This document shows positions 19,594 to 34,525 of a stretch of 64,000 bases of DNA, one piece after another. The DNA is taken from contig WGFM01000021.1 in assembly GCA_015492245.1 (NCBI GenBank), positions 1 through 64,000 on the forward strand, read 5' to 3'. A program made the translations under genes and the position numbers. Below the pieces are notes generated by a model. That model searched no databases and was not told where the DNA came from. It was given only the letters and a program-made list of their open reading frames with translations. Within the stretch, counting starts at the first letter, position 1, and each line of letters begins with the position of its first letter. This stretch comes from Deltaproteobacteria bacterium. GTDB lineage: Bacteria; Desulfobacterota; GWC2-55-46; DRQE01.

Positions 19594-20457
19594 TTATCTT
19601 ATCACTATATCACGCAGCATGTCCTCCATAACAGGTTCCCAGCTCTTGCCACTCTTTTTGAGTGTTATGAGCCTCTTTTTGAATTTTTTTGCCTGCTCCA
19701 GGTTTTTCTTTCCCGTTGGATCGGCGTTGAGGCAATGTGCCCTCCTGCCGTGGGTGAGTATGTCTATTACAGAATCCATACACAGGTTGAGGTAGCGTTC
19801 TCTGTCCGCTCTTTTGAGCTTCCACCGCGATGAGGTCGAGAGAAGGTCCAGCATGGTATGCCACCGTCTCATGCGCTGGAGGGTGAGGAGGCTTGAGAAT
19901 ATGGTCTTGTTGGTCTTGAAGGACAGGGGGGTATTGCCCTCAAGTGTTGCCTTGAGGAGGGTATCGCACTCGGGGTGCACCTTTCTCACCATCTTTTCCG
20001 GAAGCCGCCATACCTCCTTGTTTATCAGGGCATCGAAGCGCAGCTCCCAGTATATGTGGCGCAGTATCCTGGCAGAAAAGCTCTTCACCATCATCTCCGG
20101 TATGAATATGTTGTGGGCAACTGTGTCCGCTGCAAGATGGCTCATGTATCCATAGGAGAATGCCCTCTGCTGTGGGGTATTCGCCTCTTTAAGCAGCCTG
20201 AAACCGAAGCGCCAGTTGTGGCAGTGCTTGAGCTCCTTCACGAAGTTTTTGCCTACTACTATGTCGGCACTGATGTTGCCATAGAGAAAGTCATACCTGT
20301 ATTTCTCTATTACACTCACTATGGCAGGGCTCAGGATGTCGGTATGATGCAGTAGCCTCAAGCCTATTTCAAGATGTGTCGCAGGTCCCCAGGCAAGAGC
20401 ATCTTGCGTTGAGAAGAGAATTATTATAAAAAGAGAGATAAGGAGCACTGAAAACAT
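19594..20457 (-). CDS. Secreted zinc-dependent phospholipase C-like protein
   Basis: A 287-residue protein with a hydrophobic signal peptide ending near DALAWG. The fold resembles the alpha-helical zinc-dependent phospholipase C/S1-P1 group: an N-terminal Trp after processing (WGPATHLEIG), HNWRFG, and the metal-binding YMSHLAADTVAHN segment. The substrate is unknown; many relatives in this group are uncharacterised envelope proteins. It converges on coaBC (3 bp between stops) and diverges from the UDG-like gene. Confidence 0.72.
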   Translation of the reverse strand: MFSVLLISLFIIILFSTQDALAWGPATHLEIGLRLLHHTDILSPAIVSVIEKYRYDFLYGNISADIVVGKNFVKELKHCHNWRFGFRLLKEANTPQQRAFSYGYMSHLAADTVAHNIFIPEMMVKSFSARILRHIYWELRFDALINKEVWRLPEKMVRKVHPECDTLLKATLEGNTPLSFKTNKTIFSSLLTLQRMRRWHTMLDLLSTSSRWKLKRADRERYLNLCMDSVIDILTHGRRAHCLNADPTGKKNLEQAKKFKKRLITLKKSGKSWEPVMEDMLRDIVIR

Positions 20458-20498
20458 CCCTAATATGTTAGCTCAACAAAGAAAGGGTGTAAAGAAAA

Positions 20499-21116
20499 AT
20501 GAGCAGGAGAGAGTTCCTCAGGGCCATTATGGGCGAGCTCGAATACCTTAAGTCCATAGGCGTGGATTACATGTTGCTGCCGCAAGGAAGACCATGGCTC
20601 GAAGGGTTGAGGGAGAGCCTTGAGGGGTGTAGAAGCTGTGCCTCCTCGATGGGCACTGTCTGGCCGCAGGGTTCGGAAGGGGCAAAGGTTGTATTCATAA
20701 CAGGCCTGCCAGGTGATAATACCAGAGAGGGCAGCTTTTTCAGCCCACAGGAAGATGAACTTTTCTCGAAGATACTAAGGGCGATGGGGCTTGACAGGGA
20801 AGACTACTACATTACAGCCCTCCTGAAGTGCCGTGTAGAGCCAGAACAGCTCGATGAGGCAATATCAAACTGTGTGAAATACCTGGATGAAGAGCTCAAA
20901 AGGCTGGAACCTGTTGCCATAGTTACCCTCGGGGGGCTTCCACTCAGGGTGCTCACAGGTGAGCTCGAACCCGTGGAGAGGGTTACAGGAAGGTTCTACA
21001 CCTACGGTGGTATAAGGGTTATGCCAGTGGTGCATCCTGGTGTCATGCTCGAAAGAGAGGAATTGAAGAAAGGCTGCTGGATGGCACTCAAGAAGGTTAT
21101 GGCACTATACAGATAA
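20499..21116 (+). CDS. Uracil-DNA glycosylase family 4-like protein
   Basis: A 205-residue protein of UDG superfamily fold. Cysteines C44, C47, C111 and C125 match the [4Fe-4S] ligands of family 4 enzymes. The HP motif is present (VVHPGVML, H179). The usual motif A, GEAPG with a nearby catalytic acidic residue, reads TGLPGD, so the active site is diverged and uracil excision is not assured. It stands alone, with weak translation signals. Confidence 0.78.
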   Translation: MSRREFLRAIMGELEYLKSIGVDYMLLPQGRPWLEGLRESLEGCRSCASSMGTVWPQGSEGAKVVFITGLPGDNTREGSFFSPQEDELFSKILRAMGLDREDYYITALLKCRVEPEQLDEAISNCVKYLDEELKRLEPVAIVTLGGLPLRVLTGELEPVERVTGRFYTYGGIRVMPVVHPGVMLEREELKKGCWMALKKVMALYR

Positions 21117-21174
21117 CAGCTTGTGGAATCTTGCAATAAGGGGGAAAGCCTGTTAGACTTGAAATCAAGACAAT

Positions 21175-22482
21175 ATGAGACGACCAGCAATCAGCATACT
21201 CCTTCTTCTATCCCTTTTCTGTAGCCTATCCGCTGCAAGCTCGCCTGCCACAGGAGCAGAGGTCCATTTAGTCAGGGTAGATGGGGTCATAAACCCTGTG
21301 ATGGCCGAGTACATAGGCAAGGGCATAGAAGAGGCAGAGAAGGGTGCCACGGCCCTTATTATCCAGCTCGATACCCCCGGGGGGCTCGATCCGTCGATGC
21401 GTGATATAGTAAAGGCCATTCTCTCGAGCAGGGTGCCCGTGGTGGTCCATGTGGCCCCTTCAGGGGCGAGGGCTGCCTCTGCAGGGGTCTTCATAACCTA
21501 TGCAGCCCACCTGGCCGCCATGGCACCTGGCACGAACATAGGCTCTGCACATCCTGTGCCCATGGGTGGTGGAGAGATGGACGAGGTTATGATGAAGAAG
21601 GTAGAGAACGATGCCGTGGCATATATAAAGAGCATAGCATCCAAACGGGGCAGGAACGCAGAATGGGCCGAGAAGGCGGTAAGAGAGAGTGTGAACATAA
21701 CCGCGCGGGAGGCCCTCGAACTCGGTGTCATAGAGTTTGTGGTAGACTCCACAGAAGAGTTGCTCAACAGGGTAGACTCGAAGAAGGTGGAGACAGTGGC
21801 TGGCACCAGGACACTTGACACAAAGGGTGCCACCGTCAAGGAGGTGGAGATGGGGTTGAGGCTCAAGATACTCAATGCCATATCCAACCCCAATGTGGCA
21901 TACATACTGATGATGATAGGGCTTGTTGGTATCTACTTCGAGCTCTCGAACCCAGGCACCATATTCCCGGGGGTGATCGGTGCCATAAGCCTCATACTGG
22001 CATTCTATGCCTTCCAGACCCTGCCTGTGAACTATGCAGGGCTTGCACTCATAGGACTTTCACTCATCTTCTTTATAGCAGAGACACAGGTCATAAGCTT
22101 CGGCCTGCTCACCATAGGAGGGATAATATCCCTTGTTCTGGGCTCTCTAATGCTATTCGAGTCTCCTCTGCCATTCATGAGGGTATCTCTGGGGGTACTC
22201 CTTCCCACTGTTTTCATCGTGAGTCTGGCAATAGTGTTCATGATGTATTATGCCGTGAGGCTCCATAAGAAAAGGCCGGTGAGCGGATTGGAAGGCATCG
22301 TAGGTGAAGAGGGTGTTGTGGTGGAAAGAGTGGATGAGAAAGGAGGAAAGGTGTTCGTTGATGGAGAGTACTGGTACGCCTTGTCAGAGGAGCCACTTAA
22401 AAAAGGCACAAGAGTAAAGGTTGTGGATGTAAAGGGGTTCAGACTAAGGGTTGAGAGGATAAAGAAAGAGGACGAACAATAA
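21175..22482 (+). CDS. nfeD: NfeD-like membrane serine protease
   Basis: A 435-residue long-form NfeD. It has a signal peptide (about 1-24), then a ClpP/SppA-like domain with the nucleophile region PSGARAASAGVFI and a downstream Lys. Four to five membrane helices follow (about 240-365), and a C-terminal OB-fold NfeD domain (GLEGIVGEEGVVVERV). Long NfeD proteins cleave stomatin-like partners and act on membrane microdomains. The slipin gene directly follows (18 bp), the classic pair. Confidence 0.93.
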   Translation: MRRPAISILLLLSLFCSLSAASSPATGAEVHLVRVDGVINPVMAEYIGKGIEEAEKGATALIIQLDTPGGLDPSMRDIVKAILSSRVPVVVHVAPSGARAASAGVFITYAAHLAAMAPGTNIGSAHPVPMGGGEMDEVMMKKVENDAVAYIKSIASKRGRNAEWAEKAVRESVNITAREALELGVIEFVVDSTEELLNRVDSKKVETVAGTRTLDTKGATVKEVEMGLRLKILNAISNPNVAYILMMIGLVGIYFELSNPGTIFPGVIGAISLILAFYAFQTLPVNYAGLALIGLSLIFFIAETQVISFGLLTIGGIISLVLGSLMLFESPLPFMRVSLGVLLPTVFIVSLAIVFMMYYAVRLHKKRPVSGLEGIVGEEGVVVERVDEKGGKVFVDGEYWYALSEEPLKKGTRVKVVDVKGFRLRVERIKKEDEQ

Positions 22483-22500
22483 AAAAGGAGGTCTTGTATC

Positions 22501-23274
22501 ATGCTGGGTATAAGTACGGGTATGTTGTTGCTCCTGATAGTAGCGGTGTTGTTTCTGTGGTCGGCGGTACACATACTGCCAGAATACGAGAGGGGTGTGG
22601 TGTTCTTTCTGGGCAGATACCAGTCGGTCAAGGGCCCCGGGCTTGTTATCATAATTCCAGGGATACAGCGTATGGTCAGGATAAGCCTGCGCACCATAAC
22701 CCTCGATGTGCCAACCCAGGAGGTCATAACCAAGGACAATGTCTCTGTAACGGTCAATGCGGTGGTCTACTTCAGGGTGATGTCTGCGGACAAGTCGGTG
22801 ATAGCCGTGGAGAACTACCTCTATGCCACAAGCCAGCTCGCCCAGACAACACTGAGGAGTGTGTGTGGCCAGGCAGATCTCGATGAGCTGCTCTCGGAGA
22901 GGGAGAAGCTCAATGTGAGACTGCAGGAGATACTGGACCGCCAGACGGACCCCTGGGGGGTGAAGGTAACCCTGGTGGAACTCAAGGCCATAGACCTTCC
23001 CGAGGAGATGAAAAGGGCCATGGCAAAGCAGGCAGAGGCAGAGAGGGAGAAGAGGGCAAAGATTATACACGCAGAGGGCGAGCTCTTGGCAGCCCAGAAG
23101 ATGCTCGAGGCCGCACAACTTCTTTCCAAGAACCCCATGTCCCTGCAGTTGCGCTATCTACAGACACTGGTCGAGGTTGCCTCCGAAAGGAACTCCACCA
23201 CCATATTCCCCATACCCATAGACCTGGTGAAACCGTTACTCTCCCGCGAGGAGAAAAAGGAGGGAGGCAGCTAA
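22501..23274 (+). CDS. Stomatin-like SPFH protein (slipin)
   Basis: A 257-residue protein with one N-terminal membrane segment (about 4-24). An SPFH/Band 7 domain ([20 protein letters not shown] ... [20 protein letters not shown]) is followed by a charged coiled coil. It is the usual partner and likely substrate of the NfeD protease upstream, in membrane microdomain organisation. A strong AGGAGG SD is present. Confidence 0.94.
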
Positions 23275-23315
23275 GATAACAGCCCCTTAGATGGAGCTTA
23301 CAGTGTTGAACAACA

Positions 23316-24041
23316 ATGCGTGGAGATGACTACAGAGGACACAGGAAAAGGCTGAGGCAGAGGTTCCTGAAGGGTTCCCTTGAGGGGTTTCACGATTACG
23401 AGGTGCTCGAGCTCCTTCTGACCTTTGCCATACCAAGAAGGGATGTCAAACCTCTTGCAAAGCGGCTCATAAGAAGATTCGGCGGGTTGCGTGGTGTGTT
23501 CGATGCCACCGTGGAGGAGCTGAAGTCTGTAGAGGGGATGGGCGAGCACTCGAGTGTGCTCACCCATCTCGTAAAGGAGATAGGCAAGGAGTACCTCAAA
23601 GAGAGGATGCGGCAGAGAGACATCGTGAAGTCTCCACAGGATGTGCTCGACTACCTTGAGTTCGCCCTGTCCGGCGAGAGGGTGGAAAAGTTCATAGCCC
23701 TGTATCTGGATACAAAGAACCATGTGCTTGCCGTTGAGACCCTGCACGAGGGCACCATAGACCAGACATTCGTCTACCCAAGGAAGATTATAGAGCATGC
23801 CTTCAGGTACAATGCAAGAAGCGTGATATTCGTCCACAACCACCCAAGTGGGGACCCCACGCCATCACGCACAGACTACAAACTCACGAAAGAGCTCGAG
23901 AGGGCTGCCCACAGCGTGGACATCATGGTGCACGACCACATAATAGTGGGAAGAGGCGGATACTTCAGCGCCCGACAGAGGGGCTGGCTTACAGAGCCTG
24001 TGGAGGGCTCACTCAAGGTGGGCGAAGACGAGGATGACTGA
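23316..24041 (+). CDS. radC: RadC family JAMM-domain protein
   Basis: A 241-residue protein. An N-terminal helix-hairpin-helix region (LLTFAIPRRDVKPLAKRL) is followed by a JAMM/MPN+ domain with the metal signature HNHPSGDPTPSRTD. The family is widespread; an actual role in DNA repair is doubtful. The C-terminal tail is acidic. It follows the slipin gene in the same direction. Confidence 0.93.
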   Translation: MRGDDYRGHRKRLRQRFLKGSLEGFHDYEVLELLLTFAIPRRDVKPLAKRLIRRFGGLRGVFDATVEELKSVEGMGEHSSVLTHLVKEIGKEYLKERMRQRDIVKSPQDVLDYLEFALSGERVEKFIALYLDTKNHVLAVETLHEGTIDQTFVYPRKIIEHAFRYNARSVIFVHNHPSGDPTPSRTDYKLTKELERAAHSVDIMVHDHIIVGRGGYFSARQRGWLTEPVEGSLKVGEDEDD

Positions 24042-24057
24042 TGTACAGTGCCAGCGG

Positions 24058-24810
24058 CTAAAGGCTGCCCATGAGTTTACGCCTTCCGAGAACCTTCAGA
24101 AGATAGCTCCTTGCCCTGTCTACGGCCTCTGCCATCGGTAGTCCTGCTGCCAGGTGGCAGGCTATGGCCGTAGAAAGGATGCAGCCCGTGCCGTGTAAAA
24201 GCCCATCAGGAAGGGTGATGCGTTTCGAGGGAAAGCGGTAGACCCTTTCTCCATCGAAGAGGGTATCCACAGGGTCTCCCTTGAGATGTCCACCCTTTAT
24301 GAGCACATGGCGGCAGCCGGCAGAAAGAAGCCTCCCGGCCGCCTCCCTCATGCTCGCCTCATCCCTTATGTCCACCCCTGTGAGAAGAGCTGCCTCGTAT
24401 AGATTGGGGGTTACGAGCGTTGCCAGAGAGAAGAGCCTCCTGAGTGCCTCGATGCCCCTTCCTCTTACCAACCTGTAGCCACAGGTTGCCCTTATGACGG
24501 GGTCGAGGACGATGTTTCTTGTCGCCCTTTCGTCCAACAGCTGGTATATGGCATCCATGGCCCGGGGGCTGCCTGCAAGCCCTATCTTTACGGCATGGGG
24601 AGAGAATCTTTCCAGCAAGGCCTCGAGCTGTTGCCTTACAAGAGCTGGCCCGAGGCTTCGGGCGGTTGCCACACGGACGGGGCTCTGCACCGTAATGGAT
24701 GTAACCACACTCAGGGGTCTTGCATCGAGGGCAAGGATGGTCTCGATGTCCCGCTGAAGGCCCGCACCACCTGTTGGGTCGGAGCCTGCTATGGTGAGCA
24801 CACACCTCAT
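24058..24810 (-). CDS. thiD: Hydroxymethylpyrimidine (phosphate) kinase
   Basis: A 250-residue ribokinase-fold enzyme. It starts with TIAGSDPTGGAGLQRDI (substrate binding), has VLDPVIRATCGYRL, and ends with the anion-hole and catalytic motif LHGTGCILSTAIA (GTGC). It phosphorylates HMP in thiamine biosynthesis. The MK after the usual GSDSSGGAG is PT here. It overlaps the DUF445 gene by 4 bp, so the two are coupled. Confidence 0.9.
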   Translation of the reverse strand: MRCVLTIAGSDPTGGAGLQRDIETILALDARPLSVVTSITVQSPVRVATARSLGPALVRQQLEALLERFSPHAVKIGLAGSPRAMDAIYQLLDERATRNIVLDPVIRATCGYRLVRGRGIEALRRLFSLATLVTPNLYEAALLTGVDIRDEASMREAAGRLLSAGCRHVLIKGGHLKGDPVDTLFDGERVYRFPSKRITLPDGLLHGTGCILSTAIACHLAAGLPMAEAVDRARSYLLKVLGRRKLMGSL

Positions 24811-25406
24811 CTGAGAAGATAGACCAGCACAGATTGTGCCATACCTATGAGAAACCCCATGACCCCGCCGAGTATCTCTATGTATCTGAGTTCCTTTGCT
24901 ATGAAGGTGGTCAGCAGGTTCTCGAACCTTACAAGGTCAAGCCTGTCGATACGGTCAGTAAGAAGCCCCTTCACATCCACATTCTCTGTAACCCGTTTCA
25001 GAAGGGTGGGCTTTTTCTTCTCCACCTCCTCGAGTATGTCCCGGGTTATTATGTACTTTATGTGGTATATGAGGTTTTCAGAGACAAGCCCGAGGAGAGG
25101 TATCTTCTTTATCCTGGAGGCGGAGAAGCGGTGCTCTATTAGTCCTTCCACGGCCCTTTCCACATCCTCTTTCCAGTTTACAGAGTCGAGCACCGTGGCT
25201 ATGTCCTTGGAAGAGATGAGCTCACGCTCTATGGTCTGTGCTATGCTCTTTGCTATCTCCTGGCGCCTTTTCGGTATGAGCCCCTGTATGGTGAATCCCA
25301 TAAGTGATAGGGGCCTGTGGGGCCTGAAGAGGAGCTTTATGGCAACATAGTTGGTGAGATACCCTATGAAGGCCCCTATTATGGGTGGTAAAATGTATCT
25401 ATACAT
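24807..25406 (-). CDS. DUF445 family membrane protein
   Basis: A 199-residue protein with an N-terminal segment (about 5-26: PPIIGAFIGYLTNYVAIKLL) followed by the PHRPLSLMGFTIQGLIPKR box of the DUF445/YheB family. A helical soluble region follows, and a C-terminal hydrophobic helix (GVMGFLIGMAQSVLVYLL). The function is unknown. It overlaps thiD by 4 bp. Confidence 0.83.
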   Translation of the reverse strand: MYRYILPPIIGAFIGYLTNYVAIKLLFRPHRPLSLMGFTIQGLIPKRRQEIAKSIAQTIERELISSKDIATVLDSVNWKEDVERAVEGLIEHRFSASRIKKIPLLGLVSENLIYHIKYIITRDILEEVEKKKPTLLKRVTENVDVKGLLTDRIDRLDLVRFENLLTTFIAKELRYIEILGGVMGFLIGMAQSVLVYLLR

Positions 25407-25434
25407 CCACGCCTCTGCAGAGGTATTAATGTAA

Positions 25435-25452
25435 GGGTTCTCTGCAGAACCC
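25435..25452. other. Small stem-loop between DUF507 and DUF445 genes
   Basis: A perfect 7 bp stem GGGTTCT/AGAACCC with a 4-base loop and no T-run. A second short palindrome, CCTCTGCAGAGG, lies at 25412-25423. Possibly a terminator remnant or operator; nothing more can be said. Confidence 0.3.
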
Positions 25453-25524
25453 CTTATAGTATAGTATGTAAAGGGGAGATAATCAAACAGTAGTGTGAGG
25501 GGGTTCTCGACAGTGGGTTGTTTG

Positions 25525-25797
25525 TCAGAACCTGCGTTTTGCCATCTCCTCTTCGAAGTATTTCTTGTACAGTACCTCCCACTCCCTGCTTCCCTCGGCT
25601 ATCGGCCTCGAAAGGGAGCGTATCTTCTCTCTTGCAGCTGTGTCTGCCCGGTCCTCCACCATGAGGTAGTCCCTTATGGTGCGCTTTATCTCCTGGAGTG
25701 CCCTCTCGTCGTCGGTAAAGTCCACAAGGTCATCCTTCCATATACCGTCGCATATTAAATGGGCTATATGGGATATTCTGTCTTCAGAGAGCCTCAC
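25525..25797 (-). CDS. DUF507 family protein (second copy)
   Basis: A 90-residue helical protein: MRLSEDRISHIAHLICDGIW at the N-terminus and an EWEVLYKKYFEEE C-terminus, the pattern of DUF507. The function is unknown. It overlaps the upstream paralogue by 4 bp, so the two are translated together and may form a heteromer. Confidence 0.85.
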   Translation of the reverse strand: MRLSEDRISHIAHLICDGIWKDDLVDFTDDERALQEIKRTIRDYLMVEDRADTAAREKIRSLSRPIAEGSREWEVLYKKYFEEEMAKRRF

Positions 25798-26096
25798 AGC
25801 ACTATACCCCTTTCCCTTGCGAGCTTGTGTTTTATCATGTTGAACATCTTGCGATAGTCTATTCGTCCGCTCTCTATCTCGCCTGTGTGCTGGCTGAGTA
25901 TCTTCTCAACCTCTCTATCCAGCTCGTCCTCTTTACGGATGTCTGCGGTGAATATCTCTATGATCCTTTCGAGCACCACGGCCTCCTGGACCTTGAAGAC
26001 CACGAGCCCCTTCTTCTTCAGATTGTCCAGCATCTGGCGGGCTATCCTCTCTATCTGTTCCTTCGAAAGCCTCATCATAGATAAAGGTGGTAACAT
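25794..26096 (-). CDS. DUF507 family protein (first copy)
   Basis: A 100-residue (or 94 from the internal MMRLSKEQ start) helical protein with MRLSKEQIERIARQMLDNLK and an RKMFNMIKHKLARERGI end. It is paralogous to the gene just downstream. No SD is seen for either start; the family's usual N-terminus, MRLSKEQ, favours the internal one (around 26078). Confidence 0.83.
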   Translation of the reverse strand: MLPPLSMMRLSKEQIERIARQMLDNLKKKGLVVFKVQEAVVLERIIEIFTADIRKEDELDREVEKILSQHTGEIESGRIDYRKMFNMIKHKLARERGIVL

Positions 26097-26131
26097 AATT
26101 TCTAAAACTAATCAAGTCCTATGATGAAGAT

Positions 26132-26187
26132 ACAGAGATGGCCACAACGGGTGCACAAAAAATTGTGCAACCACAGGCCATCTCTGT
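26132..26187. promoter_or_regulatory. Nested palindrome upstream of spoVG, NtrC-like site
   Basis: A 12 bp outer inverted repeat (26132-26143 with 26176-26187) encloses an 18 bp palindrome, TGCACAA-AAAA-TTGTGCA (26152-26169). The inner palindrome resembles the NtrC site TGCAC(C)-N-(G)GTGCA. A further half site GTGCAACC lies at about 26186. It is 108-145 bp upstream of the sigma-54 promoter at 26277, the usual place for an enhancer. The remainder of 26097-26276 shows no supported gene. Confidence 0.6.
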
Positions 26188-26276
26188 GCAACCCCCCAGG
26201 ATGAACAGGTGGAGTATTTACCCTCCCTATGTATAACTCACTGTAATTGCATGTTTTTACTGTCATACAGGGAGTG

Positions 26277-26292
26277 TGGCACATTTGTTGCA
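26277..26292 (+). promoter_or_regulatory. Sigma-54 promoter of spoVG
   Basis: TGGCACATTTGTTGCA matches the -24/-12 consensus TGGCAC-N5-TTGCA at all conserved positions, with GG and GC 10 bases apart. It points to spoVG, whose ATG is 49 bp downstream. Confidence 0.8.
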
Positions 26293-26340
26293 ATAGTGTA
26301 AGGGATGGTGTTGTAACCTTAAAGCAGGGAGGTGTGGGAT

Positions 26341-26634
26341 ATGCGTATAACAGAAATCAATGTATTGCCCGTCGAGGGAGACGAACGGCTCAAGGCATTC
26401 GTAACCATCAAGTTCGATGGTTGCTTCATCGTGCGGGATGTCAAGGTCATAAAGGGCAACAAGGGCTACTTCGTTGCCATGCCTGCAAAGAAGATGAAAG
26501 ATGGCACCTACAAGGACCTCGTTCATCCCCTCGACAGGCGCACAAGAGAGATGCTCGAAGAGCATGTGCTCGGTGCATACAGGAAGGTTCTTCAGGAGAA
26601 CGGCAAGTTCGAGGATGTGGTAAGCAACTGTTGA
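26341..26634 (+). CDS. spoVG: SpoVG family RNA/DNA-binding regulator
   Basis: About 97 residues, beginning MRITEINVLPVEGDERLKAF. The central IRD.KVI.G..G.FVAMP-type core (VRDVKVIKGNKGYFVAMPAK) and HPLDRRTRE are diagnostic of SpoVG. In Firmicutes and spirochaetes it is a nucleic-acid-binding regulator; outside sporulating bacteria its role is unclear. GGAGG lies 8 bp before the ATG at 26341; a GTG at 26332 overlaps that SD and is unlikely. Transcription is probably sigma-54 dependent. Confidence 0.95.
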   Translation: MRITEINVLPVEGDERLKAFVTIKFDGCFIVRDVKVIKGNKGYFVAMPAKKMKDGTYKDLVHPLDRRTREMLEEHVLGAYRKVLQENGKFEDVVSNC

Positions 26635-26712
26635 GTAACCTCAGGGATACGGCCAGGTGGGCCGTCTATCCTCAAACAGGTCTTATGCCTCCCCTTATCC
26701 TGACCACAGTAG

Positions 26713-26763
26713 AGCGAACCCTTCACCTGGCAGCTTTTCTCATGCTCAAGGGTTCGCTTTCTT
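26713..26763 (+). terminator. Terminator of spoVG
   Basis: An 11 bp stem, AGCGAACCCTT/AAGGGTTCGCT (26713-26723 with 26748-26758), with a 24-base loop followed by a T-rich tail. Confidence 0.7.
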
Positions 26764-26770
26764 GTCCGAT

Positions 26771-26820
26771 AAAAAAAGCTTAAAAAAAGGCTTGACACAG
26801 ATATTAAAATCTGTTAATCT
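26771..26820 (+). promoter_or_regulatory. Strong promoter of the first hexaheme cytochrome gene
   Basis: TTGACA (26792-26797), 17 bp, TAATCT (26815-26820). Two A-tracts (26771-26777 and 26782-26788) lie directly upstream like an UP element, suggesting strong transcription. Confidence 0.7.
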
Positions 26821-26826
26821 TTAAAT

Positions 26827-26911
26827 AAGCAAGGCGCTGAGGAGGGTGCCAGTAGGAGGTGATGGCTGCCTCAGGGGAAAGGAGAAGGCTTTTCCCTACT
26901 GGGGCTTTTTT
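26827..26911 (+). promoter_or_regulatory. Attenuator-like leader of the first hexaheme cytochrome gene
   Basis: The predicted 5' leader can fold CCAGTAGG (26849-26856) with CCTACTGG (26895-26902) just before a run of six T (26906-26911), an intrinsic terminator. An alternative stem, CTGAGG/CCTCAG (26837-26842 with 26869-26874), encloses one arm and cannot coexist with it except as a pseudoknot. Inner hairpins (GAGG/CCTC, GGGAAA/TTTCCC) are also possible. No known riboswitch class is recognised. From 26912 to the SD at 26965 nothing else is seen. Confidence 0.5.
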
Positions 26912-26975
26912 AATGCCCATGGAGTAGCTTTTAAATGATGTGAAGACAACATTTTAGAAGAAGGGAGGTAAGGGT

Positions 26976-28274
26976 ATGAAGAGGACTTTTCTACAACTTC
27001 TGTGTTTAACCGCTGTATTCGTGCTGGCGATTGCTGTCGCGCCTTCGTTCGCGGTTCACAAGAACTATGGTGATCTTGCCTGCGGCAGCTGTCATACCAT
27101 GCACAACAGCCAGGGTGGAACCACCGCAAGTCCTGACAACCTGGGTGGTGCAACCGGTGGAAGCATAGTGCTTCTGAGGGGTAATGTTGGAAGCCGCGCA
27201 GATATACAGAACCTGTGTCTGCAGTGCCACGCAGACAACGGTGCACAGGCTGATGCCACCTTCGGGACAGACCTCCATCCGGCACCCAAGGTCTACTTCG
27301 ATGGTAAGGCTGGAGCCGGAACAGACACTAACACTGCAGACGGTATCAACCTGAGCCTTCTCGGTGCAGGTGGAGACTTCTCTGCAGAGATTTCAGGTGA
27401 TTCCGCAACAGGATGGACACCAACTGGAGCAGGTGCAAACTATGCACTCGGTTATGGCCACTCGGTTGGCTTCGGCGACACGGTTCTTAACGGCAAGAAT
27501 CCCCCTGGTGGTGATGCCGCGTTTGGTCCAGGCTCCTATTTTACCTGTACAAGCTGTCATGACCCCCATGGAACAGACGCAACAGGTGGTATGGATGCAA
27601 ACAACATAAACGCCTACAGGAACCTGAAGGGTATACCTGCAGGCAGTGGTGCGACAACTGCAGTTGGGCTTTCCACCTACACAACAAGCTATGTGGGTAT
27701 GGCAGGTGGCACCACCTGGAGTGGTGATGGCACGGCACAGAACCACATCTGGCCCGTGTACAGGTCAACGGCTGCATTCGATGAGACAGATGTATGTACC
27801 GATGGTGGAACGGTCAACTGCTACGGTGTGACGGCAGCAGGCAACAACAATGCAACAGACGGCATGTCCAACTGGTGTGCCCAGTGCCATGACAACTGGC
27901 ACGAGGACATAGCCACAGGAAATGTGAGCGGAGACGACTGGAAACGCCACCCTGTGGACAATGTGCTCATAGACTCTACACCAGACTCCGGTGGTGGTGT
28001 GGACATAGTGAGGCTCGACAACTATGTGGTGAGCACCATTGGGGACCTGTCCCTGCCACTTGCAAAGTCAAGCGATGCGAGCAAAGCCATAGCATACCGC
28101 ACCACAGGCGATGATGGTGCATCGAGGGTGTTCTGTCTGAGCTGCCACTTTGCACATGGTGGTCCGTTCTACGATGCACTGAGGTGGGACTACCTCTCGG
28201 CAGTGGGTGCAGGCTCACAGAATGCAAACTCCGTACCTTCGAATGTGGGTTGCCAGCTCTGCCACAACAGGTAA
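26976..28274 (+). CDS. OmcS-like secreted hexaheme cytochrome c (copy A)
   Basis: A 432-residue precursor with a signal peptide cut after SFA (about residue 26). It has six CXXCH sites: CGSCHTMHN (36-40), CLQCH (81-85), CTSCHDPHG (191-195), CAQCH (301-305), CLSCHFAHG (387-391) and CQLCHNR (426-430, at the very end). The order, the neighbouring TMHN, DPHG, RHP (324-326) and AHG tags and the total length match Geobacter OmcS, whose subunits polymerise into extracellular heme filaments. It is otherwise rich in Gly, Ser, Thr and Asn. A CX7C pair (274/282) may form a disulfide. The SD is GGGAGG. A filament-forming role is inferred from this resemblance. Confidence 0.9.
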   Translation: MKRTFLQLLCLTAVFVLAIAVAPSFAVHKNYGDLACGSCHTMHNSQGGTTASPDNLGGATGGSIVLLRGNVGSRADIQNLCLQCHADNGAQADATFGTDLHPAPKVYFDGKAGAGTDTNTADGINLSLLGAGGDFSAEISGDSATGWTPTGAGANYALGYGHSVGFGDTVLNGKNPPGGDAAFGPGSYFTCTSCHDPHGTDATGGMDANNINAYRNLKGIPAGSGATTAVGLSTYTTSYVGMAGGTTWSGDGTAQNHIWPVYRSTAAFDETDVCTDGGTVNCYGVTAAGNNNATDGMSNWCAQCHDNWHEDIATGNVSGDDWKRHPVDNVLIDSTPDSGGGVDIVRLDNYVVSTIGDLSLPLAKSSDASKAIAYRTTGDDGASRVFCLSCHFAHGGPFYDALRWDYLSAVGAGSQNANSVPSNVGCQLCHNR

Positions 28275-28298
28275 TCCTGTGATGCCTTGAATACAGAG

Positions 28299-28329
28299 GG
28301 GAGGGGATGAACATCCCCTCCCTTTTTTT
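28299..28329 (+). terminator. Terminator after hexaheme cytochrome A
   Basis: A near-perfect stem GGGAGGGGATG/CATCCCCTCCC (28299-28309 with 28312-28322), followed by seven T. It separates the cytochrome from the genes downstream, so those are expressed at a lower level or from another promoter. Confidence 0.85.
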
Positions 28330-28399
28330 GTTTCTATCGTCCAGAGGTTTTTATTACAATACACAGACAGAGATAAAACGGTCCAGAGGGTCGGGTGCC

Positions 28400-29764
28400 A
28401 TGAACATGGGACTTGTTACAACGATAGTGGCTGTTGTTGCCATGCTCTTTCTTTCCGGCGGTGTGGCCCAGTGTCAGGAAGACTACAGGGGACCACTCAA
28501 GGTAAGGCTCAAATACCTTGGTGGTTTCGATGCAAAGCTGAGCGGAGCCCCCCTTGGCTGGGTAGACCAGATGGTGATAGACGAGGAGAACGAGGAGCTC
28601 TACCTTTTGGACAGGAGCAGGAAGAGGATAGTGGTTACCACCAAGGATGGAATATACCTGTATCATTTCAGATACACACTTGCAGGGGTTGGGCAGGTGT
28701 GCTGTTTCTCTCTGGATACTCGAAGTGGCGACATATACATTGCAGAACCCGGAAGGATAGTGGTGCTCAACTACAGGGGTGAATACAAGAAAGAAGTGCC
28801 TCTGGATGACATACCCGAAAGAGAGGTGCTCGAGATACAATCCATACATGTGGCTGATGACGGGAATATATACATAGGAGACTCCAGGAGAGGACGCATA
28901 GTGGCACTCGATTCCGCAGGGAAGGTGGTAAGGATACTGGACAGGAAGACGACCATGGCGAGTAACTTCAAGGGATTGACCGTGAAGGGAGATGAGGTCG
29001 TTTTTCTCGATTCGGGAAGGGCAAGGGTGCACAGACTAACCATGGATGGCAGGGTGCACAGGATATTCGGCCGTCTTTCGAGCCTTCTTGGCGGGTTCAG
29101 CCTGCCAGTCACCCTCAGGGTGGACTGGGACAGAAGAAGGATAATAGTGGTGGATACCAACAGGATGATGGTCATAGCCTTCGATATGAACGGAAACCCA
29201 CTCTACGAGTTCGGTGGCCCCAGGGTGTTCCGCTGGCCAAGGTCTCTTGCGGTATCACGGGAGGGTAATATCTATGTCGCCGACATGAGCGGGGTGATAC
29301 GGATGTTCGAGGTCGTAGAGGTGAAAGAAGAGTCTCCACCACCTGAACCGGCCAGGGTCACGCCACCTCCAGAGCCAGAGGCCGAAAAGAAGAAGGAACC
29401 AACCCTCGAGGATGTGGAAGAGATGGTGAAGGAAGAAGAAAGGCTTCTGCCTGTCTACTTTGCATTCGACAGCGCCGAGCTGACTCCCCATATGAAGAGC
29501 ATACTCGACAGGGATGCGGAATACCTCGGGAAGAACCCTGCTTCAAGGATAAAGATACGGGGCTATACGGACGAGATAGGCTCGGAGGAATACAACCTGA
29601 GGCTTTCGGAGAAGAGGGCAAAGGCCGTATACGACTATCTCGTGGAAAAGGGGATAGAGCCCGAAAGACTCGAGATAGTGCCCATGGGAGTGGTAAGAAC
29701 AGAAGAGAAGACAGAAGAGGCCATGGCAAGGGCAAGAAGGGTGGACTTCCTCGTGGTGAAGTGA
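28400..29764 (+). CDS. NHL beta-propeller protein with C-terminal OmpA peptidoglycan-binding domain
   Basis: About 454 residues. A signal peptide (about 1-23) is followed by six NHL-type repeats (about 45-325; e.g. VDQMVIDEENEELYLLDRS, SLAVSREGNIYVADMSG) that should form a beta-propeller. A Pro/Glu-rich linker leads to an OmpA-C domain (about 350-454) with the peptidoglycan contacts GYTDEIGSEEYNLRLSEKRA. An in-frame ATG at 28307 lies inside the terminator stem and is rejected. A propeller fixed to the cell wall next to a filament cytochrome could anchor or guide it; that is inference. Confidence 0.85.
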   Translation: MNMGLVTTIVAVVAMLFLSGGVAQCQEDYRGPLKVRLKYLGGFDAKLSGAPLGWVDQMVIDEENEELYLLDRSRKRIVVTTKDGIYLYHFRYTLAGVGQVCCFSLDTRSGDIYIAEPGRIVVLNYRGEYKKEVPLDDIPEREVLEIQSIHVADDGNIYIGDSRRGRIVALDSAGKVVRILDRKTTMASNFKGLTVKGDEVVFLDSGRARVHRLTMDGRVHRIFGRLSSLLGGFSLPVTLRVDWDRRRIIVVDTNRMMVIAFDMNGNPLYEFGGPRVFRWPRSLAVSREGNIYVADMSGVIRMFEVVEVKEESPPPEPARVTPPPEPEAEKKKEPTLEDVEEMVKEEERLLPVYFAFDSAELTPHMKSILDRDAEYLGKNPASRIKIRGYTDEIGSEEYNLRLSEKRAKAVYDYLVEKGIEPERLEIVPMGVVRTEEKTEEAMARARRVDFLVVK

Positions 29765-29797
29765 GTGCAAGATGGCTCTTAAAATATACACAGACCA

Positions 29798-30652
29798 ATG
29801 ACCCTGCGAGGCCATAACCTTTCGACCACAGAGGTTGTGCTATTCCTGTCGTTGATACTGGTTCTGTCTGCTGCTACCCTTATGAGAAACAGCCTGTGGA
29901 AGGATGGTATCACCCTATGGAAGGAGACCATCAGAAAGTCTCCTTCGAAGGCACGCCCCTACAACAATCTTGCCATGGAATACTACAGAAATGGACATGT
30001 AGATGAAGCGATAGACAACTACCTGAAGGCCCTGTCCCTTGCCGATCTTTCGCAGATACACGCAAACCTCGGGATGGCCTATCTCGAAAAGGGGTTTGTG
30101 GACATGGCAGTTGAGGAGGAGAAGAAGGCCATAGCGCAGAATCCTTACTATGCCCCTGCATACTCGAACCTCGGTATAGCCTACAGTATGAAGGGTATGC
30201 ATCAGGAGGCGATAGAGTCGTTCAAGAAGGCACTTGCCTTGAGCCCCCGTCCCTTCACACGGCACAACCTTGCCAGGGCGCTGAGAAGGGCTGGAAGGTT
30301 TGAAGAGGCAATGAAGGAGGTCGACGCCCTGCTGAGGGTTTCGGAAACAGCAGAGTTGAGAAACGAGCGCGGGCTTACACTCATGGCGATGGGCAGGCTC
30401 GATGCCTCGCTTGAAGAGTTCGAGAGGGCGAAGAGACTGAACCCCCTCTATGTGCCACCATATCTGAACACAGGACTTGTATACATGAAAATGGGCATGC
30501 TCGGGGAGGCAGAAAGAGAATACGAGCAGGCATCGAGAATAGAACCCGATTATCCACTGCTCCATAAACATCTTGAGATACTCTACAACAGACTGGGCAG
30601 ACCAGGGGCTGCAGAAAAGGAAAGAAAGAGGTTTGAAGAGCTCTCGAAATAA
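29798..30652 (+). CDS. Membrane-anchored TPR protein (A)
   Basis: A 284-residue protein with one N-terminal membrane helix (about 12-29), then LWKDGITLWKETIRKSPSKA RPYNNLA and about six TPR repeats (e.g. AYSNLGIAYSMKGMHQEAIE). The W.D...LWK..i.KSP.kaRp.NNL junction is typical of large membrane proteins with C-terminal TPRs (TMTC-like), yet here only one helix precedes it, so it looks like a cut-down version. Likely a periplasm- or cytoplasm-facing scaffold of the cytochrome locus. No clear SD. Confidence 0.82.
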   Translation: MTLRGHNLSTTEVVLFLSLILVLSAATLMRNSLWKDGITLWKETIRKSPSKARPYNNLAMEYYRNGHVDEAIDNYLKALSLADLSQIHANLGMAYLEKGFVDMAVEEEKKAIAQNPYYAPAYSNLGIAYSMKGMHQEAIESFKKALALSPRPFTRHNLARALRRAGRFEEAMKEVDALLRVSETAELRNERGLTLMAMGRLDASLEEFERAKRLNPLYVPPYLNTGLVYMKMGMLGEAEREYEQASRIEPDYPLLHKHLEILYNRLGRPGAAEKERKRFEELSK

Positions 30653-30710
30653 AGGTCCGACTGCCGAATGGCAGGTGATTGATGACAAGTAAGAGATATG
30701 CTGGTAGAAG

Positions 30711-30975
30711 ATGGCACCACTCAAGCCGAGTGGATATGTGGACGCTGGTTTCATCTACCATGAAAAGAAGGAGTTCAACAAGGCCATGTATGTGTTCACG
30801 AAGGCGCTCTCTCTCAACCCATATCACAGCAGTGCCCACTATGGGCTCGCACTGGTGCTGGAGGAACTCGAAAGATACACACACTGGCAGGAATAGCTGA
30901 GGACATCAGTGCCTGATTCACCTGTACAGAAGGGATGTCATAAGACATCTTGAGAGGCTTATAGATGAAAGACAA
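30711..30975 (+). pseudogene. Remnant of a TPR gene
   Basis: A short frame (30711-30896) contains one clear TPR unit, GFIYHEKKEFNKAMYVFTKA followed by HYGLALVLEELERY, then stops. After a frame change, the stretch to about 30975 encodes DVIRHLERLIDERQRKR, a typical TPR C-terminal helix. The two parts together look like the end of a TPR protein broken by an indel. It lies between two intact TPR genes of the same style, so it is probably a decayed third copy. Confidence 0.55.
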
Positions 30976-31618
30976 CGGAAGAGAGGCTTCTGGCAGGCTG
31001 GAGATAGCCCTGTTTGCAGTGATTATCTTCATCATGGGCACCCTTTCCTACAGCCGTAACATGAGCTGGCAGGACGGTGTTACACTCTGGAAGGATACTT
31101 TCGGGAAGTCTCCTGGCAAGGTGAGGCCTGCAAACAACCTTGCAAGGGGGTTGCTTGAGAGGGACAGGTGCCAGGAGGCGATAGTATTCCTCAAGATGGC
31201 CATAGAGAAAGACCCCTACTATGCAGAACCACATTACAACCTGGGGGTGTGTTATACAAACTATGGAAGATACGATGAGGCACTCGAAGAGTTCAGGGAG
31301 GTGGTGCGCATAATGGGGGTGCTCCTTAAGGGCCACTATGGAGAGATACCCCGCCTGACTCTCCTTGTGGCAAGCCACGGTTACATGGCAAACATATATG
31401 CAACAAGGGGTGAGTACGAAAGGGCGATAGAACACTTTCGCAGGGCAATGGAGTATGCCCCTTCAAGTGCTGCCCTGCACTACAACCTCGCCCTTACACT
31501 GAAGAGGGCAGGCAGACTCGATGAGGCCATCGAAGAGTTCAAGAAGGTGCTCGAAATCAAACCAGACGATGAGGCGGCAAGATGGAACCTTATGATGCTG
31601 GAAGGGGCAGGAAGATAG
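30965..31618 (+). CDS. Membrane-anchored TPR protein (B)
   Basis: A 217-residue protein with one membrane helix (about 12-29), then the same junction as copy A (SWQDGVTLWKDTFGKSPGKV) and about four TPRs (e.g. HYNLALTLKRAGRLDEAIEE). It is paralogous to the TPR gene at 29798. Its start overlaps the TPR remnant and its end overlaps the start of the next NHL gene by 37 bp, suggesting coupled translation. Confidence 0.82.
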   Translation: MKDNGREASGRLEIALFAVIIFIMGTLSYSRNMSWQDGVTLWKDTFGKSPGKVRPANNLARGLLERDRCQEAIVFLKMAIEKDPYYAEPHYNLGVCYTNYGRYDEALEEFREVVRIMGVLLKGHYGEIPRLTLLVASHGYMANIYATRGEYERAIEHFRRAMEYAPSSAALHYNLALTLKRAGRLDEAIEEFKKVLEIKPDDEAARWNLMMLEGAGR

Positions 31619-32490
31619 CCCTTGTCATGGTGTGTTGCCTTGTGGCACTCATTGGCTACAGCGAGGCATCGAGGCTTGCACCCAAATTCAAGTTTGCCAT
31701 AGGGGGCTATTACAACGACAGGTTTCAGAACCCCTCTGCCATATTCATCGACAGGAAGGAAGAGGAGCTCTATGTGGCAGACAACGCAAGAGGAGAGATC
31801 ATGATATTCACCCTCGAGGGTGCCCCGGTCTACCGCTTTGGCAAAAGAAAGGGTATCAGCGCACCAAAGGATGTGGCTGTAAGAGATGGCAACATATATG
31901 TGGTGGAAGAGGGAAGCCCCAATATCTTTGTGTATAACTACAGGGGTGAGCTTGTAAAGAGGCTTGAACCCCCAGGAGATGAGGACTTCATGCCAGGCAC
32001 ACTGGATATGGATGAGAGGGGCTACCTCTACATAACAGATATTCTCAATGGCGGCTGTATAGTGCTCGATAGAGAAGACAGGCCTGCAGGAAGGATAGCC
32101 AGGGGGCTCAAGCCCGTCTCCTCTGTGGCCGTGGGCAGAAAAATAGTATATTTCATCACACCCTTCCACAGAGGCAAAGTCATACATCTTTATACAAGAG
32201 AGGGTAAGCATCTGAGGAGCTTCGAGGCCATAGAGGGCAGGGGCGGAAACCTGGGGCTGCCTGTGGCAGGAAGGGTGGATGAAGAGGAGAATCTGTGGCT
32301 TGTGGATTCCCTCAGGGGGGTTATGGTATACACCCCCGAGGGCAAGAGGATAATGGAGTTCGGGGGTTCACCACCTTTGAGGGAACTGCTTGAATTTCCT
32401 ATAGATATTGACTTTTTTGGCAATAATGTGGTATATATATTAGAAAAGGGAAAAAAGAGGATTGGTGTGTTCAGACTGATGACCTTTTAG
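31582..32490 (+). CDS. Secreted NHL beta-propeller protein
   Basis: A 302-residue protein with a signal-like N-terminus (RGRKIALVMVCCLVALIGYS) followed by NHL repeats (PSAIFIDRKEEELYVADNAR; PKDVAVRDGNIYVVEEG; DIDFFGNNVVYILEKGKKR). It resembles the propeller part of the NHL-OmpA protein upstream but lacks the OmpA domain. The 31582 ATG gives a proper basic n-region and has GAGGCGG upstream; an ATG at 31627 would avoid the overlap with the TPR gene but loses the basic residues. Directly followed by the second hexaheme cytochrome. Confidence 0.8.
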   Translation: MEPYDAGRGRKIALVMVCCLVALIGYSEASRLAPKFKFAIGGYYNDRFQNPSAIFIDRKEEELYVADNARGEIMIFTLEGAPVYRFGKRKGISAPKDVAVRDGNIYVVEEGSPNIFVYNYRGELVKRLEPPGDEDFMPGTLDMDERGYLYITDILNGGCIVLDREDRPAGRIARGLKPVSSVAVGRKIVYFITPFHRGKVIHLYTREGKHLRSFEAIEGRGGNLGLPVAGRVDEEENLWLVDSLRGVMVYTPEGKRIMEFGGSPPLRELLEFPIDIDFFGNNVVYILEKGKKRIGVFRLMTF

Positions 32491-32511
32491 GTTCGAAGGG
32501 ATTGGCGGAAG

Positions 32512-33726
32512 GTGAGAAAGCATAGAGAGAGAAAATCCTTGGACGGGAGCCGTTCTTTCAGAATATCCTGTATTCTTCTCTCCCTTCTTTTTATCCTTCT
32601 GACCATCCAATCGGGCAAAGCCGGCCTTTATCATGCATCGGGCGATGAGACCATAACAGGTGAAGAGACCCTTGCCTGCAGCCAGTGCCATACCATGCAT
32701 GGCACCCAGGGAGGCCAGTCTCTCATATATGGTGGAACGGCAGCGGTGTATCCCAAGCTTCTCAGGGCCTCGAGCATATTGAACCTCTGTCTTTACTGTC
32801 ATCAGGACAACTCGGTTGGCATGACCAACCCAACCCCACCTGATATATGGAACAACACCCTTGGTTACATACCCTCTGGAGGGGACTTCGCACATCTCAA
32901 CTACACCAACGAGTCCAACCGCCACAGTGTCGGCACCGATGTGTCCATCATTACACCACCGGGGTCAGACACCACTGTGGACTGGACAGCCGTAACCACA
33001 AGGTATGGTATCATCTTCAATTGTCTCTATTGCCATGACCAGCACGGAAACAGAAACTACAGAAACCTGAGATATGATCCTGGAAACCCGACAAACGACA
33101 CAGAAGCAGCAGGGGTCAAGGTAAGCTACAGTCTGGACGGAGGAGTATGCTCAACAGGGGAGCTTGCCCCCTGTGACATAGACAACACCACCGATGTAAA
33201 CGACAGTCTTTTCAAGTACAACAGGAACAGCGTGAAGTTCTACAAGCCCGGGGCTACAGACTACAACAGGCTTGCCCAGTGGTGTGGTAGATGCCATGCG
33301 AACTTCTTCGGCCAGAGCGGTGATACCAACCTTGGAGGCACCCCGGCAGTGGGCGTGGGCGCAGGGGACGACAATACAGGTTCCCCATGGGTAAGGCATC
33401 CTGTGGGAGACATAAACATGACCATTGCAGGAGGCAACCTCCATGTAGATACAGCCACCTGGCTTGATACAGCCATGACAGGCAGACCCCGCTATGTGGA
33501 GCCAGACAGCTACGGCACAGAGACCATAGATGGTAACGAGCAGCCCTTCTGCCTGAGCTGCCATTATGCCCATGGTGGTGGAAATCCAAACAACGCCACA
33601 GACCCCACACTGGATCACTCCAACCTCGTCTATGTAGACGCAGGAGGTAACCTCAACATGGATACCACTTATGACACAGCAACAGGCATGCTCAGAAATA
33701 CCTGCCAGAAATGCCACAACCAATAA
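32512..33726 (+). CDS. OmcS-like secreted hexaheme cytochrome c (copy B)
   Basis: A 404-residue precursor with a GTG start and a signal peptide to about residue 37. It has six CXXCH sites: CSQCHTMHG (56-60), CLYCH (93-97), CLYCHDQHG (171-175), CGRCH (258-262), CLSCHYAHG (347-351) and CQKCHNQ (398-402, at the C-terminus). The order and tags (TMH, D.HG, RHP at 295-297, AHG) are the same as copy A and OmcS. A CX7C pair (213/221) sits between hemes 3 and 4, as in copy A. It lies 21 bp after the NHL gene, in one transcript with it and the next TPR gene. Confidence 0.9.
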   Translation: MRKHRERKSLDGSRSFRISCILLSLLFILLTIQSGKAGLYHASGDETITGEETLACSQCHTMHGTQGGQSLIYGGTAAVYPKLLRASSILNLCLYCHQDNSVGMTNPTPPDIWNNTLGYIPSGGDFAHLNYTNESNRHSVGTDVSIITPPGSDTTVDWTAVTTRYGIIFNCLYCHDQHGNRNYRNLRYDPGNPTNDTEAAGVKVSYSLDGGVCSTGELAPCDIDNTTDVNDSLFKYNRNSVKFYKPGATDYNRLAQWCGRCHANFFGQSGDTNLGGTPAVGVGAGDDNTGSPWVRHPVGDINMTIAGGNLHVDTATWLDTAMTGRPRYVEPDSYGTETIDGNEQPFCLSCHYAHGGGNPNNATDPTLDHSNLVYVDAGGNLNMDTTYDTATGMLRNTCQKCHNQ

Positions 33727-33748
33727 AGTAGAGAGTGATGGGTAGACG

Positions 33749-34525
33749 ATGAAGAAGGTTATCCTTGCAACACTGCTGGCCTCTTTCATGGCCATGTTCG
33801 TTATAGCTGTGTGGCACTTCATGCCGCAGAAAGAGTCTACACCAGAGATCATACGATATGCCACCCTGGATGAACTGAGAACGAAGGTGGAAGAACTCAA
33901 CAAGAGGTTCCAAAGAGGTGAGCAGAACTGGCAACTTGCATACAAACTTGGTGTTGGCTACCTCCACCTTGGGCGCCCAGAGGACGCCATACCCCTGCTC
34001 GAGACTGGTATCAACCTGAACCCCGAATTCTACAAGATGTATGAGACCCTGGGTATGGCATACTATAGACTGGATAGACTCGATGACGCCATGGAAGTGT
34101 GGCAGAAGGCCATGATGCTCTCACCACAGGCAGCCCACCTCAAGGACATGGTAAGCCGCGTAAAGTTCAGGGTGGAGACAAGAAGACGCATAAAGGAGAT
34201 GGAAAAACTGCCTGAAGACAAGAAGAACTGGCTCAAGAGATACGAGCTCGCCACCCTGTATATGGTGGTTAAAGAATACGACAATGCAAGAAGGGAGATG
34301 GAGAAGGCCATAGAGGAAAGACCCGACAGTGCAGACCTCTATGATACCCTTGCAAATATTTATGCACTGAAGGGAGACTTCGATAAGGCCGTGGAAAACC
34401 AGGAGAAGGCATACAACCTGCGTCCAGATGATGAGATGATGAAAAAGAGGCTCGAGGAGATGAAACGCATAAAAGATGCTCTCGAGAAAGGAGAATATCA
34501 CAAAACACCACCCGATAACCCTTGA
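33749..34525 (+). CDS. Membrane-anchored TPR protein (C)
   Basis: A 258-residue protein with one N-terminal membrane helix (about 3-23) and TPR repeats over about 60-240 (YLHLGRPEDAIPLLETGINL; TLANIYALKGDFDKAVENQE), with a basic/acidic helical middle. It resembles NrfG/CcmH-like TPR proteins that assist c-type cytochrome maturation, but that link is only by context. It is 22 bp downstream of cytochrome B. Its stop codon is inside the -35 box of the next promoter. Confidence 0.8.
   Translation: MKKVILATLLASFMAMFVIAVWHFMPQKESTPEIIRYATLDELRTKVEELNKRFQRGEQNWQLAYKLGVGYLHLGRPEDAIPLLETGINLNPEFYKMYETLGMAYYRLDRLDDAMEVWQKAMMLSPQAAHLKDMVSRVKFRVETRRRIKEMEKLPEDKKNWLKRYELATLYMVVKEYDNARREMEKAIEERPDSADLYDTLANIYALKGDFDKAVENQEKAYNLRPDDEMMKKRLEEMKRIKDALEKGEYHKTPPDNP

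Follow-up and report, generated by a model that had tools for sequence, protein, structure and literature searches.

The closest described parallels to the spoVG promoter considered here are the NtrC-activated sigma-54 promoters of the glnA and glnK type, in which a -24/-12 promoter is served by upstream palindromic activator sites with TGCAC half-sites and by a two-component bEBP. Excerpts of PMC8743547 give the NtrC consensus as a 17-bp sequence, TGCACCAnnnTGGTGCA, also found in part of PMC4987338, and the E. coli RpoN holoenzyme motif as TGGCACnnTTnTTGC. The spoVG upstream region shares these elements with NtrC promoters, its two-component bEBP being a candidate one. It departs from them in palindrome length (18 bp versus 17), in half-site position 6 (A/T here versus C/G), in its target, spoVG, and in a distribution that the presence of NtrC does not track. 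A further parallel is the NtrY/NtrX family, which according to part of PMC7240162 controls the cell envelope elsewhere. The candidate activator discussed below, a REC-AAA-HTH_8 protein, recalls this family in gene order, since its gene stands after an NtrX-type gene, recognized by the NtrX DNA-binding motif preceding the orthologs, in 23 of 30 loci; unlike NtrX, it belongs to a separate family in the tree, and its helix reads HRNTL against ERSHL in NtrX.

Control of spoVG itself has been described in other terms. In Clostridioides difficile the gene is listed as a target of SigH and not of SigL (sigma-54) in the accessible part of PMC7438776; an alternative sigma factor is thus common to both cases, whereas the C. 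difficile factor is of another class, with no enhancer or ATP-driven activator. In Borrelia burgdorferi SpoVG is a nucleic-acid-binding regulator, and the bacterium also possesses RpoN and a bEBP (sections of PMC12472547 and PMC6117026). The available text of the review PMC12472547 names rpoS as the sole known RpoN-dependent gene there, and that of PMC6117026 has spoVG RNA rising in badR and csrA mutants. The literature searched, from which subscription papers are mostly absent, yielded no account of spoVG being under sigma-54 control, and a term search of three papers on sigma-54 regulons (PMC2725144, PMC4641369 and PMC12316311) found no mention of spoVG in their main text.

The spoVG upstream region in the window

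The locus lies in a stretch of 64,000 nucleotides from a Deltaproteobacteria bacterium, referred to as the window. Its relevant features are as follows.

25525..25797, minus strand: C-terminal half of a DUF507 gene (PF04368)
25794..26096, minus strand: N-terminal half of the DUF507 gene (PF04368), divergent from spoVG, with the enhancer between the two
26132..26143, no strand assigned: left arm of an outer inverted repeat, ACAGAGATGGCC
26152..26169, no strand assigned: distal enhancer palindrome TGCACA-N6-TGTGCA, TGCACAAAAAATTGTGCA, 18 bp, ending 107 bp before the -24 element
26176..26187, no strand assigned: right arm of the outer inverted repeat, GGCCATCTCTGT
26185..26190, no strand assigned: lone half-site TGTGCA at register -86, where most relatives have a second palindrome
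26277..26292, plus strand: predicted sigma-54 (-24/-12) promoter, TGGCACATTTGTTGCA, fitting the E. coli RpoN motif and conserved 5' of spoVG across the order
26341..26634, plus strand: spoVG, 97 aa from ATG, with an alternative GTG start at 26332

The spoVG ORF matches PF04026 with an E-value of 8.2e-31 (106.4 bits against a cut-off of 29.6), and its product scores 107.5 bits against NF009749, slightly below the cut-off of 108. The divergent DUF507 gene (25525-26096) consists of two overlapping ORFs, one matching positions 1-93 and the other positions 95-180 of a Pfam model 182 positions long.

The initial annotation had placed a sigma-54 consensus 49 bp before spoVG, and such a sequence is indeed present, with 48 nt between the end of TGGCACATTTGTTGCA and the ATG at 26341. 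It fits the RpoN holoenzyme motif, with GG at -24 and GC at -12 in TGGCAC-N5-TTGCW. A sigma-54 start is expected about 12 bp downstream of the GC and needs rpoN, which the genome encodes together with 11 strong, plus two weak, bEBP matches; reckoned from the -12 element, transcription of spoVG is predicted to start near 26303. The pattern TGGCACN5TTGCW is frequent in the 1.88-Mb genome, where at most one mismatch yields 126 matches, against 37 for the reversed pattern, and exact matches number 14, several of them within long ORFs; the window site alone is therefore no proof.

The other half of the proposed pair, an 18-bp palindrome with TGCAC...GTGCA halves nested in a longer inverted repeat more than 100 bp upstream, is likewise found as described, at 26152-26169 inside ACAGAGATGGCC/GGCCATCTCTGT. 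In its exact form TGCACA-N6-TGTGCA occurs once in the genome, in the window, and a repeat element was accordingly rejected as its identity; weak copies are common, with 130 places at two mismatches or fewer (nine for the reversed pattern). None of these genome-wide counts is decisive alone; what is decisive is the conserved arrangement in relatives. The outer inverted repeat was not seen by eye in the displayed upstream regions of relatives. A structured RNA was also considered as the identity of the promoter and enhancer region and was rejected, as Rfam gave no match over 20000-34000 at gathering scores or over 26050-27000 at E-values up to 1.

Conservation of promoter and enhancer across the order

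PF04026 is present in 44 of the 48 genomes of the order. SpoVG was found at 53 places, of which 50 were read (G035:C45, G015:C34 and G018:C92 were left out), 49 located by script and one, in G044, by hand; eight of the 50 were treated as paralogues and excluded, among them each of the three copies in G003, leaving 42 main genes. A sigma-54 site with at most one mismatch lies within 700 bp upstream in 34 of 41 main spoVG promoters, whereas dinucleotide shuffles of these promoters (100 runs) left 0.29 with a site on average and never more than 3. The reverse strand of the same 41 regions holds none, nor does any of the eight paralogues. The hand-located gene also has no site upstream, which makes the total 34 of 42, and two further genomes (G032 and G005) have two-mismatch sites but good palindromes, bringing the number of sites to 36. 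The distance from site to ATG ranges from 64 to 606 bp, with G026 at 606 bp and G027 at 590 bp, so the length of the spoVG leader is not conserved.

With a threshold of at least 9 of 12 half-site letters matching, a palindrome lies upstream in 33 of the 36 loci with a sigma-54 site, with two palindromes in 26 of them; the loci lacking any at this threshold are those of G040, G041 and G046. The gap between half-sites is sharply defined: across 32 loci, a gap of 6 gives 41 matches at two mismatches or fewer, against two for a gap of 5 and between zero and six for each of the other gaps (2-5, 7-11). The palindromes also keep a register relative to the promoter. Among 34 loci from 20 genera (G040 and G041 being left out), 22 belong to a class with palindrome ends at -103 to -111 and -80 to -89 (the second at -75 in G037), and 12 to a class with ends at -93 to -96 and -73 to -74. 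The shift of about 11 bp between the classes corresponds to one helical turn, as expected of an activator facing the promoter. When any spacing is admitted, 27 of 34 loci have a best pair separated by 21-22 bp; the class tally gave 28 of 34, a count biased by its admitting only spacings of 19-23 and 32 bp. The window has a simpler layout: its full palindrome ends at -107, and at -86 there is a single TGTGCA half-site.

Most other positions upstream of spoVG carry little information, with the exception of an A/T-rich tract just before the promoter. It lies about 15-45 bp before the -24 element, contains T runs, is kept beside the palindromes and could be a DNA-bending (IHF-like) or polymerase-contact element.

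The same motif pair, which the initial annotation had suggested seeking in relatives, is therefore present upstream of spoVG in most of the order, and the GG and GC elements, whose loss in relatives it had named as a refutation, are retained in most of them; promoter or enhancer is missing in nine of the 42 genomes with a main spoVG gene. Judged by comparative sequence evidence, the promoter with its phased enhancer is real, conserved and nearly confined to spoVG within the order, and this conservation strongly supports the predicted sigma-54 control of spoVG through an upstream enhancer. We put the probability at roughly 85% that sigma-54 holoenzyme transcribes spoVG and that a bEBP acting at the upstream TGCACA-N6-TGTGCA sites activates it. 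The holoenzyme would act from the -24/-12 promoter, and the bEBP would bind on a preferred helix face about 75-110 bp upstream, usually at two sites and mostly 21-22 bp apart; in the window one site would be full and the second reduced to a half-site. That most of the order keeps this layout points to a signal-driven activator as the probable switch for SpoVG.

Candidate activators and competing explanations

The bEBPs of the window's genome and of seven others were read and placed in a tree of 89 proteins, 80 of 99 HTH_8 matches having been fetched (those omitted were 18 from G039 and a single weak one from G008). Of the 11 strong bEBPs of the window's genome, only two carry R-N at the corresponding position of the recognition helix, a pair that we take to be residues important for TGCAC recognition. 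One is an NtrC-like protein (L066), which scores 532.5 bits against TIGR01818, below the cut-off of 558.6; the other (L062) is a REC-AAA-HTH_8 protein with the recognition helix HRNTL, encoded directly after NtrY- and NtrX-like genes. The cognate activator is probably this second, response-regulator type of bEBP, to judge from its helix and its distribution among genomes, its gene usually following ntrX. It would be phosphorylated by NtrY or another kinase, and would then loop to the promoter and open the complex by ATP hydrolysis.

Co-occurrence was tabulated by hand, with kinship ignored, for 43 genomes, made up of G003, which has no site, and the 42 in which a main spoVG gene was identified. 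Among the matches listed, the HRNTL bEBP occurs in 29 of 33 genomes with the site and in three of 10 without it (Fisher p=0.0009, phylogeny uncorrected), while the corresponding figures for NtrC are 31 of 33 and eight of 10 (p=0.23, likewise uncorrected). For the HRNTL bEBP the difference is seen also, among the matches listed, in genomes at least 90% complete (24 of 25 versus three of seven, p=0.0044) and at genus level (18 of 19 versus three of eight, p=0.0037), and p is 0.02 if G045, where the gene is split by a frameshift, and G003, with an ambiguous score, are counted as present; the frameshift is perhaps an assembly error. Short ortholog fragments were possibly missed among the matches listed, and G002 was scored positive on a contig fragment of 322 positions. 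Exceptions exist in both directions. Four genomes have the site and no HRNTL bEBP among the matches listed: G043, which is 99% complete, has none at ortholog level and is a true exception, and G010, G027 and G029, which are less complete (79-88%) and belong to genera in which other members carry the gene. Conversely, the site is missing from three genomes that have the bEBP, namely G009 (at a contig edge, where 375 bp were read), G020 and G044. Even with these exceptions, the HRNTL bEBP appears to track the site better than NtrC does, a correlation uncorrected for phylogeny. The HRNTL helix is invariant in the 30 loci, which makes covariation of the DNA-binding helix with the site uninformative. 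In G013, G015, G019, G034, G038 and G039, spoVG and the HRNTL bEBP gene share a contig and are separated by about 52-66 kb.

The alternative that survives best, though we consider it unlikely, is that NtrC itself activates spoVG through an 18-bp variant site, which would place SpoVG in the nitrogen-starvation response. The half-site TGCAC matches the NtrC consensus in the excerpted text of PMC8743547. An NtrC-like protein is encoded in the window's genome and NtrC in most of the order, and the R-N pair is common to NtrC and the HRNTL protein. Against this, NtrC enhancers take the 17-bp form TGCACC-N5-GGTGCA, whereas the window site has 18 bp in the form TGCACA-N6-TGTGCA and the gap of 6 prevails throughout the relatives (41 matches versus two); the presence of NtrC does not track the site among the matches listed (p=0.23); G030, which is 94% complete, has the site and no ortholog-level NtrC among the matches listed; and a 17-bp palindrome at another locus of the window's genome (L130, see below) indicates that both spacings coexist. 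NtrC as the plain answer was rejected, since the half-site fits while spacing and distribution do not. The description of the enhancer as NtrC-like in the initial annotation thus holds for the TGCAC half-site but not for palindrome length, gap or co-occurrence, and any link between the spoVG switch and nitrogen is hypothetical.

Still less credence is given to activation by another conserved bEBP, such as the NRTTL or FlgR-like family, which may belong with flagella. In the eight-genome comparison these families go with the site, being present in all five genomes that have it and absent from two of the three that do not, but their recognition helices are without the R-N pair of NtrC and the HRNTL family.

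It is very improbable that the enhancer serves the divergent gene and not spoVG. One family, presumably purM, is the divergent neighbour in 29 genomes, as would suit such a role; however, the neighbour is different in the window (DUF507) and in another group of six genomes (a glgB-like gene, as we assume), several of which keep the spoVG sigma-54 site, and the promoter points at spoVG, with no reverse-strand site in 41 loci. This explanation was rejected because the neighbour changes while the promoter stays. Chance matches or an unrelated hairpin have a negligible likelihood, since position, spacing and phase are kept in 34 loci of 20 genera and the promoter site is absent at the eight paralogues, even though the exact sigma-54 pattern is as frequent in the genome, and as often inside long ORFs, as noted above.

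Near-confinement to spoVG and possible output

The predicted sigma-54 promoter and its palindromes were also sought as a combined pattern, which occurs in nine of 395 genomes sampled across the phylum. These comprise eight of the 14 order members drawn, every one at spoVG, and one of the 381 others (G395), not at spoVG; the window's own genome is among the six order members missed because its palindrome lies beyond the allowed gap. When 84,980 named species genomes were screened with a stricter pattern, 15 stretches matched; 10 of these are at spoVG, of which nine come from MAGs carrying the label Deltaproteobacteria and one from an entry labelled "bacterium". The matches away from spoVG (G395 and L105, L109, L114, L116 and L117) are taken as chance or as sites of other regulators. 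When palindromes of 17 or 18 bp were allowed, 16 of the 48 order genomes had the pattern, 14 at spoVG and two elsewhere, at the loci L130 and L141 described below. Among the other 13 exact sigma-54 matches of the window's genome (L002-L014), the 250 bp upstream contain a two-mismatch palindrome (at -136) in L002 alone, and palindromes with three or more mismatches, or none, in L003-L014.

Two loci outside spoVG deserve mention. In the window's genome (L130, G000:C17:54500-58500), a molybdopterin oxidoreductase gene has a sigma-54-like site preceded, at a distance of 75 bp, by the 17-bp palindrome TGCACAATATTTGTGCA, and is a candidate target with NtrC spacing. In G032 (L141, contig C313), a sugar transferase gene (PF02397, 2e-60) has an 18-bp-type enhancer and a sigma-54 site of its own and is a possible second target beside spoVG.

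The role of SpoVG, a widespread protein, is to our knowledge largely open outside Firmicutes and Borrelia. The genes around spoVG offer a hint. An ORF of one of three clusters lies within about 2 kb 3' of spoVG in 21 of 42 genomes, these clusters being of glycosyltransferase type (10), UDP-glucose dehydrogenase type (6) and nucleotidyl transferase type (5), with five representatives (L033, L040, L047, L035 and L087) checked by Pfam. Surface-polysaccharide genes are the likeliest output, as they stand near spoVG in about half of the genomes and a sugar-transferase gene has the same enhancer and promoter; an envelope role for the spoVG circuit is a guess with some support. Raised SpoVG would act on RNA or DNA targets. 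It is tempting to propose, if tentatively, that a bEBP subfamily adjacent to ntrYX is devoted almost wholly to spoVG through an 18-bp NtrC-related palindrome, forming a nearly single-target circuit in which an envelope or redox signal leads to a burst of SpoVG and then to surface polysaccharide.

If the promoter is activator-dependent, members of the order would produce SpoVG when a specific signal calls for it. Together with the candidate activator, the 18-bp palindrome provides a direct biochemical route to that signal, and because few targets were seen, the circuit allows a simple test.

On its 3' side, spoVG is followed in other genomes by a gene for a radical SAM or membrane protein, and in the window by a multihaem cytochrome gene (26976). 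Between spoVG and the cytochrome gene, an inverted repeat (AGCGAACCCTT / AAGGGTTCGCT, 26713-26758), whose loop is too long for the terminator scan to pick up, is perhaps a transcription end, which would make spoVG monocistronic in the window. The leader of the cytochrome gene (26837-26902), for which Rfam gave no match and the fold z-score is just -1.2, contains CTGAGG/CCTCAG and CCAGTAGG/CCTACTGG, complementary segments that interleave and have a T run after them, and is a possible attenuator or riboswitch.
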